The position numbers and the translations under genes were made by a program. The notes below the pieces were generated by a model. The model searched no databases and was not told the DNA's origin. It worked only from the letters and a program-made list of their open reading frames with translations. This document shows positions 45,078 to 47,657 of a stretch of 64,000 nt of DNA, in pieces (within the stretch, counting starts at the first letter, position 1; each line of letters starts with the position of its first letter). The DNA is from Caulobacteraceae bacterium (GTDB lineage: Bacteria; Pseudomonadota; Alphaproteobacteria; Caulobacterales; Caulobacteraceae): the NCBI GenBank assembly GCA_947441065.1, contig CANESI010000007.1, positions 21,040 to 85,039 of the forward strand. The letters are read 5' to 3'.

Positions 45078-47657
45078 ATGCGCCAGACCCCCGTCGAAAA
45101 CCTGACCGAAGCCGAAGCCACCGAAGAGCTCACGAGGCTTGCCGATGAGTTGGCGGCCCACGATCTGCACTATCACCGCGAAGATGCGCCGGTCATTTCG
45201 GACGCGGACTATGACGCGCTCAAACAGCGTAACAGTGCCATTGAGGCACGGTTCCCCGCGCTGGTGCGTGAAAACTCCCCGAGCCAGCGGGTCGGGGCAG
45301 CGGCCTCAGAGCAGTTTTCAGCGGTCGAGCATGGCACGCCCATGCTGTCGCTCGACAATGCCTTTAGTGACGACGAGGCGCGTGAGTTTGACGCCCGGGT
45401 GCGCCGGTTTTTGGGCCTGGGCGATGAGGCGGTGGCCTATACGGCAGAGCCTAAGATTGATGGGCTATCGGCCTCCTTGCGCTATGAAAAGGGCGTGCTG
45501 GTGCGCGGCGCGACGCGGGGGGATGGCCGGGTGGGTGAGGATGTCACCGAGAACCTGCGGACCATCTCGGAGATCCCGCACCGTCTGAAGGGCTCCGGCT
45601 GGCCTGACATCATCGAGGTACGCGGCGAGGTCTATCTGGGCCATGAGGACTTTGCCGCCCTCAATCGCAGCGCCGCTGAGGCGGGGCAAAAACTCTATGC
45701 CAATCCGCGCAATGCCGCGGCAGGGTCCTTGCGTCAGATCGATCCGAAGATCACGGCTCAGCGGCCCTTGCGGTTCTTTGCCTATGCCTGGGGCCTGACC
45801 AGCGCGCCCTTCGCGCAGGGACAGGCGCAGGCCTTGAAGGCCTTGGCCGACTGGGGCTTTGTGACCAATCCCCAGACCCAGAGCGTGGTCGGGGCCGAGG
45901 GTCTGCTCGCCGCCTATCGTGATTATGAAGGCCTGCGCCCCAAGCTCAAATTCGACATTGATGGGGTGGTCTATAAGGTCGACCGGCTGGATTGGCAGCA
46001 GCGGCTCGGCTTTGTGTCTCGCTCGCCGCGTTGGGCGGTGGCCCGCAAGTTCCCGGCCCAGCAGGCCCGTACTGTTCTGGAAGCCATTGATCTTCAGGTT
46101 GGCCGCACGGGTGCCGTGACCCCGGTGGCAAGGCTGCGCCCCGTCACGGTCGGCGGCGTGGTGGTGACCAATGCGACCTTGCACAATGGCGATGAGATTG
46201 AGCGCTTGGACGCTCGCCTTGGCGACACCGTTATTGTCCAGCGCGCTGGAGACGTGATCCCGCAGATTGTCGAAGTGATCAAAAGCGAACGTGAGGCGGA
46301 AGTTGGTTCTTATCAGTTTCCGCATTTGTGTCCCTGTCCTTTGGCCAGCGCACTTCAGCGCACAGTTACGGAAGGCGGCGGAAACTCAGTTGTGTGGAGG
46401 TGTTCCGGGGGATCAAATTGTCCGTATCAAAATGTCGGCACACTGATTCATTTTGTTTCACGTTCAGCTTTTGATATCGACGGGCTTGGTAAAAAACTGG
46501 TTCAAGATTTATTTGAGGATGGTTTGATAAAAGAACCATCAGACATATTTAAGCTTCGAGAAAATGATTCTAAAAGTATAAAAAAACTAAAAGATCGCGA
46601 CCGAATGGGATCGGTTAGTGTTTCTAAATTGCTTTATTCAATTGATAGCTCTCGATCAGTGAATTTGGATAGATTTATTTATGCGCTAGGTATCAGGGCG
46701 ATTGGTCAAGATACTGCAAAAAAACTCGCTGATAGATTTGTAAGTTACGATAATTTATTGCAGGGCGTGGCTTCATTACGAAGCATTGTCGCTTTAAAAA
46801 TGGAAAATTCATCAGTTTTGATGAACTCATTTGGATTCGACTGGCCTCACAACGAAACCGATAAAGAGAAGTTATCATGGAAAATTGCTGAGCGATTTCA
46901 ATTTATAAAACTGAAATTCCGCGAAAACATCAGCCGTTTGGAATCGATATATGGGCTTGGTCCGATATCTGCGAAAAAAATCTTGATGAAGGCGTGGGAA
47001 GAACATCCTCACACTGATGCGTCTATGGCTGAGGCGTTGGAGTTGGTAAAATTACAGAGATTTTCGGCCCTTATCTCTCAAACTTACCCAGAGATAAATG
47101 GCCCTGACTTGGCGATTAATCGCTATTTGGATAGGCAGATAGCCTTTTTCAGAATTCAAATGGACGAATTATCAAATGATATTTCAGGTCATGAAATAAG
47201 CATTAGTTATCTGACGGGAGAAAAAGTCTATTCATTTGCTGAAGAAGTATTGAAAATTGCCGATTCATTCGAAGGTCCATTCAGAATTATCGTTCCAGAT
47301 GAAGGTGTTCGGCTGACATCATTGATCAATTTGATGATTTATTTTTCTTCTAGTGCGACCAAGGGTTCAGTTGAACGTTTGGTTGATCAAATCGACATTC
47401 GTGATGCCGAGCCGCCCAAGACCGACACGGCTGTCGCCGGCAAGACCATCGTCTTTACCGGCTCGCTGGAAAAGATGACCCGCGATGAGGCTAAGGCTCA
47501 GGCCGAGTCTCTTGGGGCCAAGGTCGCCTCGTCCGTATCCAAGAAGACCGATCTGGTGGTGGCCGGTCCGGGAGCCGGGTCCAAACTCAAGACCGCAACC
47601 GATCTTGGCATTCAGGTCATGACAGAGGATGAGTGGCTAGCGCTGGTTCGCGATTGA
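45078..47657 (+). CDS. ligA: NAD-dependent DNA ligase LigA with enlarged AT-rich central segment
   Basis: An 859-aa ligase joining nicked DNA with NAD. The adenylation domain is normal: lysine K126 in [17 protein letters not shown], with [18 protein letters not shown] and [20 protein letters not shown]. The OB fold follows, and the zinc finger uses CPC and RCSGGSNCP. The helix-hairpin-helix region begins [20 protein letters not shown], with [20 protein letters not shown]. The BRCT domain ([15 protein letters not shown], from about residue 785) closes it. Bases about 46,290-47,405 are strikingly AT-rich against a GC-rich gene, and about 160 extra residues (around 570-730) match nothing I know. 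The reading frame is unbroken, so the protein is likely functional. E. coli LigA is 671 aa. Confidence 0.93.
46290..47405 (+). other. AT-rich mosaic segment inside ligA
   Basis: Hand counts give about 33% GC for the line at 46,561-46,620 against 63% at 45,601-45,660. The change is abrupt on both sides, near the start of the zinc finger and just before the BRCT domain. The segment encodes residues about 405-775. The zinc-finger and first HhH parts still resemble alphaproteobacterial LigA, while the later part holds an unrecognised insertion. Recombination with a low-GC donor is the simplest reading. Confidence 0.75.

Follow-up and report, generated by a model that had tools for sequence, protein, structure and literature searches.

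How did the gene of an enzyme commonly taken as conserved, vertically inherited, part of the replication machinery and a drug target come to carry an AT-rich middle between GC-rich flanks? The gene is ligA, encoding the NAD-dependent DNA ligase, in the window, that is, the whole stretch of 64,000 nucleotides from a Caulobacteraceae bacterium that was analysed here. A first-pass annotation had described the flanks and an AT-rich core of about 1.1 kb, and had proposed that this part was replaced by recombination. The core is the visible portion of an in-frame exchange of the whole zinc finger-HhH-linker module, and the gene is best explained as a recent mosaic, into which 1.14 kb of a divergent, low-GC ligA was swapped by double exchange (probability about 0.9). 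Replacement of the same module in other bacteria of the order is the new element of this work.

The ligA gene of the window

As judged from its sequence, the gene is a LigA, with adenylation and OB domains (PF01653, 1.1e-96; PF03120, 2.2e-32), the stretch EPKIDG containing the KxDG motif, a zinc finger with four cysteines and a C-terminal BRCT domain (PF00533, 2.5e-14). The middle gives a match to HHH_2 and a weak one to HHH_5. The reading frame is uninterrupted across 45078-47657, including about 380 AT-rich codons, and the product has 859 amino acids against 671 in E. coli LigA; the open frame and both lengths had been given correctly by the first-pass annotation. Its statement that this is the sole replicative ligase also agrees with the genome bin of 2.9 Mb, in which ligA is the one match to an NAD-dependent ligase. 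The nearest loci with a name belong to Caulobacter and Brevundimonas, in keeping with the family Caulobacteraceae. The features are as follows.

45078..47657, + strand: ligA, NAD-dependent DNA ligase, probable mosaic, 859 aa (open reading frame; Pfam adenylation, OB, BRCT and HHH_2; single copy)
45078..46270, + strand: 5' part of host origin with adenylation domain and OB fold, up to RAGDVIPQI (93-94% DNA identity to the congeners G001, G006 and G002 up to 46270)
46271..47413, + strand: segment of probable foreign origin, GC about 0.38, third-position GC 0.35 (no congener DNA match between the break points; composition; outlier among 154 LigAs)
46329..46421, + strand: zinc finger of that segment, four cysteines (CPC...C....C; alignments; two hairpin strands in the model)
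46452..46742, + strand: HhH units 1-3 (pLDDT 81-98; Foldseek matches to E. coli and Thermus LigA; HHH_2, weak HHH_5)
46746..47291, + strand: all-helical extension between HhH3 and HhH4, including one more hairpin of 10 residues (kin only to the G529 extension, E 4.8e-8; helices of low confidence)
47292..47413, + strand: degenerate HhH4 and linker (profile alignment to short-form LigA; high-confidence helices at the end)
47414..47657, + strand: host-derived 3' part, end of the linker and BRCT domain (about 91% DNA identity to G001 and G006)

Composition and borders of the exchanged segment

In sliding windows the GC content of ligA is 0.61-0.67 up to position 46300, 0.34-0.42 at 46400-47400 and 0.61-0.64 beyond. 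By codon position it is.71/.47/.75 in the host-derived 5' part and.47/.37/.35 in the segment. The GC-rich flanks and AT-rich core noticed at first reading are thus confirmed. Among 600-bp windows covering 451 kb of the genome (20 contig ends and the window; mean GC 0.605, sd 0.035), the ligA segment is the lowest, at 0.37, and besides it one sampled window falls below 0.46, going down to 0.45. In a set of 154 LigAs from Caulobacteraceae, third-position GC in the middle differs from that in the flanks by about -0.02 on average (sd 0.025 without the outliers), whereas the difference is -0.40 in the window, about 15 SD off, and -0.32 in G529, a second family member discussed below. As a separate observation, the only other sampled stretch below 46% GC (L320:6701-7701, contig C16) lies inside an open reading frame of about 360 codons on the - strand, which begins with a signal-like N-terminal sequence.

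The borders are fixed more exactly by identity to congeners than by composition. DNA identity to three congeners is about 93% through base 46270, the middle base of the codon that follows RAGDVIPQI at the end of the OB fold, and there is none directly after it. The match resumes at 47414 in two of the congeners, or at 47370 in G002, with 87-91% identity, and this right border lies within a 17-residue stretch leading from the linker into the BRCT domain. After 47414 the identity continues past the ligA stop codon and into the gene downstream; the neighbouring genes are unchanged and synteny is kept on both sides. The borders 46290 and 47405 proposed in the first reading were therefore right to within about 20 bases. 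What lies between the break points is 1.14 kb of coding DNA, which replaces the zinc finger, the HhH domain and the linker in frame.

The proteins tell the same story. Identity to the nearest congener, G001, is 97% in the adenylation and OB domains, 50% from the zinc finger to HhH3 and 99% in the BRCT domain, and the congener LigAs, with a short middle and uniform GC, are free of the AT-rich segment. The sharp breaks in DNA identity and the contrast between flanks at 97-99% and a middle at about 50% bear out the earlier proposal of a replacement by recombination. Among the 221 pairs of family members with at least 90% identity in the N-terminal part, the middle drops to 47-49% only in pairs that include the window genome (G000) or G529; in all others it is at least 78%. 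The congener bin G006 was found to hold two overlapping ligA pieces on different contigs (G006:C157 and G006:C117; L048, L047), an N-terminal one of 254 amino acids at 98% identity and the remainder with a short, ordinary middle, so that this bin may mix strains.

Separate trees of the parts of ligA, which had been suggested as a check, place middle and flanks in conflict. In the tree of the catalytic part the window and G529 are tips beside sisters at 96-97% identity, and the same terminal branch carries about 1 change per site in the middle and 0.02 in the flank. From the position of the tips and the length of the middle branch, both events are recent. These values also bear on the view that nothing was imported and that the resident module evolved fast, turning AT-rich by relaxed selection or directed mutation. 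The family character of the middle would suit such an origin, since CxCPL zinc fingers are frequent in Caulobacteraceae and HhH1-3 are closest to Caulobacteraceae (51-53% identity). It is nevertheless very improbable, given codon-sharp borders at which an identity of 93% gives way to no match at all, the unequal rates on one terminal branch, and an added extension that is common to the window and G529.

Anatomy of the exchanged module

The four zinc cysteines of the segment are kept, at positions 418, 420, 442 and 448, in a CxC spacing variant that gives no PF03119 score; this arrangement is found in most Caulobacteraceae LigAs. Structure prediction of residues 394-859 followed by a fold search, a check proposed at first reading for residues 570-730, produced confident models of HhH1-3 (pLDDT 81-98) and BRCT (93-98) that match the LigAs of E. 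coli (2owo), Thermus (1dgs/1v9p) and Deinococcus (8ak4). By Foldseek and Pfam these enzymes have the same order of adenylation domain, OB fold, zinc finger, HhH domain and BRCT domain as the window's protein, which differs from them in that its zinc finger and HhH parts are foreign to their own gene and AT-rich, and in about 150 extra residues between HhH3 and HhH4, predicted as helices with low confidence. Of the usual four HhH units, three are thus predicted with high confidence and HhH4 is degenerate: some 60 residues directly ahead of the linker can be aligned with a normal HhH4, whose glycines they have lost. A further hairpin is placed in the extension.

The claim that residues 570-730 have no counterpart did not survive these comparisons, as the last 60 or so correspond to the degenerate HhH4 and linker, and the same extension is carried by G529. 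The two extensions are homologous at 25-30% identity (25% over 233 amino acids). This extension type occurs in 2 of 348 family genomes, those of the window and G529, and a profile built from the two found no third full-length member among the 348. Middles of the family fall into two main length classes, of about 219 and 297 residues, against 379 in the window and 368 in G529, and profile comparison detected no relation between the extension and the insert of the long form. Set beside both ordinary classes, the window's LigA shares the CxC-type zinc finger and has flanks 97-99% identical to its nearest congener, whereas its middle is about 50% identical, with a third-position GC of 0.35 against 0.75. 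Function of the protein is plausible because some 380 AT-rich codons have stayed open and the four zinc cysteines are kept.

The zinc-finger spacings CxC[PDE]LK and CPxCGS are distributed patchily among alphaproteobacterial LigAs, even within Brevundimonas and among families of Hyphomicrobiales. Exchange of modules in deep time, according to zinc-finger type, was considered and dropped: the type requires 14 changes on the catalytic tree and 1 on the middle tree, a circular comparison as the zinc columns were included, and without these columns the counts are 14 and 11 (19 on the BRCT tree). The long and short forms of the middle follow HhH1-3 somewhat better than the flanks, with 8 changes against 17 and 15, a weak tendency.

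Replacement of the same module in other bacteria

At least three further bacteria of the order have had their ligA middle replaced in independent events, often from the same left point. G529 is placed in Brevundimonas, the genus that includes G637, and its nearest named LigA is that of Brevundimonas bullata. Its ligA (L081/L243) matches that of its sister at 92.6% DNA identity as far as the final base of VIPQI; the match is then lost and returns, at 92.5%, with the start of the BRCT domain. The left junction and the homologous extension are those of the window, and the foreign middle is again AT-richer than its gene; with a GC of 0.53 it is less AT-rich than the window's, and the event is a separate one in another genus.

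The second case is Caulobacter sp. BK020, an isolate, whose ligA is found at 100% identity in G554 (Caulobacteraceae). Its identity to a close relative, 92%, extends through the middle base of the codon that follows VIPQI, the very base at which the window's identity ends, and is followed by a foreign middle that is different from the window's and has a CPVCGS zinc finger. The left junctions of the window, G529 and BK020 thus agree within one codon, directly after RAGDVIPQI. In BK020 the import continues through its own BRCT domain and stop codon into a DEDDh exonuclease, which is fused in frame, at 6583, to the original LigA BRCT domain of the host.

L085:4690-6790 (NZ_SLZL01000012.1): foreign zinc finger-HhH-BRCT-stop of BK020, then exonuclease and host BRCT

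The layout is the same in G039 (L050), from another family of the order, where a ligA of 832 amino acids is followed by an exonuclease-BRCT protein of 303. The exonuclease part has a GC of 0.42-0.53 and its BRCT tail one of 0.62-0.68; with the LigA BRCT domain of a genus-mate this tail shares 78% identity, and the BRCT domain of G039's own LigA 58%. The first 240 bases of the G039 ligA are GC-richer (0.61-0.64) than the remainder. In both genomes, unlike in the window, the import brings a BRCT domain and an exonuclease, and the old BRCT domain of the ligase, captured by the exonuclease, makes a new two-domain protein. The stretches read in BK020 and G039 contain the exonuclease but no integrase. 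In G260 (L327) and G339 (L328) the gene directly behind ligA, which overlaps the ligA end, encodes a DEDDh exonuclease without BRCT, and there is no fusion scar. Since an exonuclease directly follows ligA in these two genomes, each of the imports of BK020 and G039 resembles a donor region of ligA and exonuclease, recombined at BRCT homology, and the idea of a mobile defence cassette in BK020 and G039 is weakened. The G339 exonuclease may have a SWIM-type tail.

The right junction varies from case to case: it lies at 47414 or 47370 in the window, about eleven codons later in G529, and in the second BRCT domain in BK020 and G039. The recurrence of the left one bears on the suspicion that the window's gene is an artefact of assembly or binning, the ligA of the bin having been joined to the ligA of some AT-rich organism. 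Such a suspicion is natural, as the genome bin is metagenome-like, consists of 83 contigs and is 1.4% contaminated, but the frame is kept across both junctions, each at a domain edge, synteny continues on either side, and two other genomes, G529 and the isolate BK020, have a left break point within a codon of the window's. A chimera of this kind is hardly credible.

Exchange of part of a housekeeping gene, in frame, with a divergent allele is also known from mosaic essential genes such as penA of Neisseria. The penA mosaics differ from the ligA of the window in having a near relative as identified donor and beta-lactams as a known driver. The natural swaps of the DNA-gripping part of LigA, recurring at one point in different genera, indicate that this module can be exchanged for a version with about 50% sequence identity, and they offer natural chimeras for testing the roles of the zinc finger and the HhH domain. 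Their recurrence also raises the question of what selects new LigA middles.

Neutral exchange or selection

One answer is that no advantage is needed. The ligA of diverged alphaproteobacteria or of mobile elements would occasionally be taken up, and only those recombinants with junctions at domain edges would stay functional. The chances of this account are about even. It fits the location of the junctions in the most conserved blocks, at domain borders, and the inclusion in the BK020 and G039 imports of the gene that follows ligA in donor-like genomes; a vehicle is at hand in the gene transfer agents of Caulobacter crescentus, documented to move pieces of 5-15 kb (PMC9632790). It accounts less readily for recurrence at one module within one order, and for two separate imports of one rare extended type, of which there is no other example among 348 family genomes.

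The other answer, raised at first reading, is diversifying selection. Antagonists such as phage proteins or toxins would bind the zinc finger-HhH part, a divergent module swapped in would escape them, and the extension and the exonucleases of BK020 and G039 would belong to the same conflict. We regard this as unlikely. Repeated hits on the same module in one order, while the catalytic part stays, are what it would lead one to expect, and the roughly 451 kb sampled from the window's genome holds no other such segment. The survey, however, covered ligA alone, and a swap rate relative to other genes is not implied. The exonuclease-BRCT protein of BK020 matches the PADLOC candidate PDC-S48, which is itself a predicted defence family, and DEDDh exonucleases adjoin ligA in ordinary genomes too, as in G260 and G339. 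A literature search found no antagonist of the zinc finger-HhH part of LigA, and we know of none. Nor was a replaced middle found in 5,395 E. coli genomes, all of which, having a ligA match, keep both the adenylation and the zinc finger-HhH parts at 90% or more. The broader proposal, that the interval between OB fold and BRCT domain is an exchange hot spot in Caulobacterales under phage or toxin pressure, into which clamp modules are swapped, sometimes together with a BRCT-capturing exonuclease, is similarly doubtful; if it were true, an essential replication enzyme would be behaving as a defence-linked variable locus.

Proposed route of the exchange and search for a donor

For the recent mosaic by double exchange, the following route may be envisaged. 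DNA carrying a diverged, low-GC ligA would enter the cell, perhaps by gene transfer agents or transduction, and recombination of the RecA type at short conserved blocks would then replace the zinc finger, the HhH domain and the linker. The junctions lie in two blocks common to all LigAs, the end of the OB fold (RAGDVIPQI) and a 16-residue stretch at the passage from linker to BRCT domain. With reading frame and domain order kept, the product is predicted to be a working ligase, whose foreign, enlarged HhH clamp would still encircle nicked DNA. If only exchanges at domain borders leave a working enzyme, the identical left junctions would be accounted for. Some points count against this explanation. 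The expected donor resembles the host little beyond the two short blocks, so that classical recombination would be inefficient, and the missing donor match and the variation of the right junction weigh on the same side.

The first-pass annotation had named a low-GC relative as the donor. The low GC of the segment and its CxCPL zinc finger, common in Caulobacteraceae, are in keeping with this part of the claim; the relationship is less secure, as that zinc finger is not confined to Caulobacteraceae and the searches of relatives, phages, plasmids and viral contigs brought up no donor. No close donor came from 385 genomes of the class, 398 of the order, 348 of the family and 200 further genomes of the order (overlapping sets), where G529 is the only carrier of the extension besides the window genome. 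A tblastn search of 155 phage and 176 plasmid records gave weak matches only, and three scans of IMG/VR gave no donor among viral contigs. As judged from its genes, the ligA locus of the window itself shows no sign of an integrated mobile element, the in-frame segment being the only addition, with no extra genes and unchanged neighbours. One viral contig, L304 (IMG/VR 3300024274_000331), was considered as carrying a phage ligase of the imported type and was rejected, as it is the end of a prophage beside an ordinary host ligA. The last part of this contig is host DNA, in which an integrase gene precedes a ligA of the ordinary alphaproteobacterial kind, and it probably marks a prophage border near ligA.
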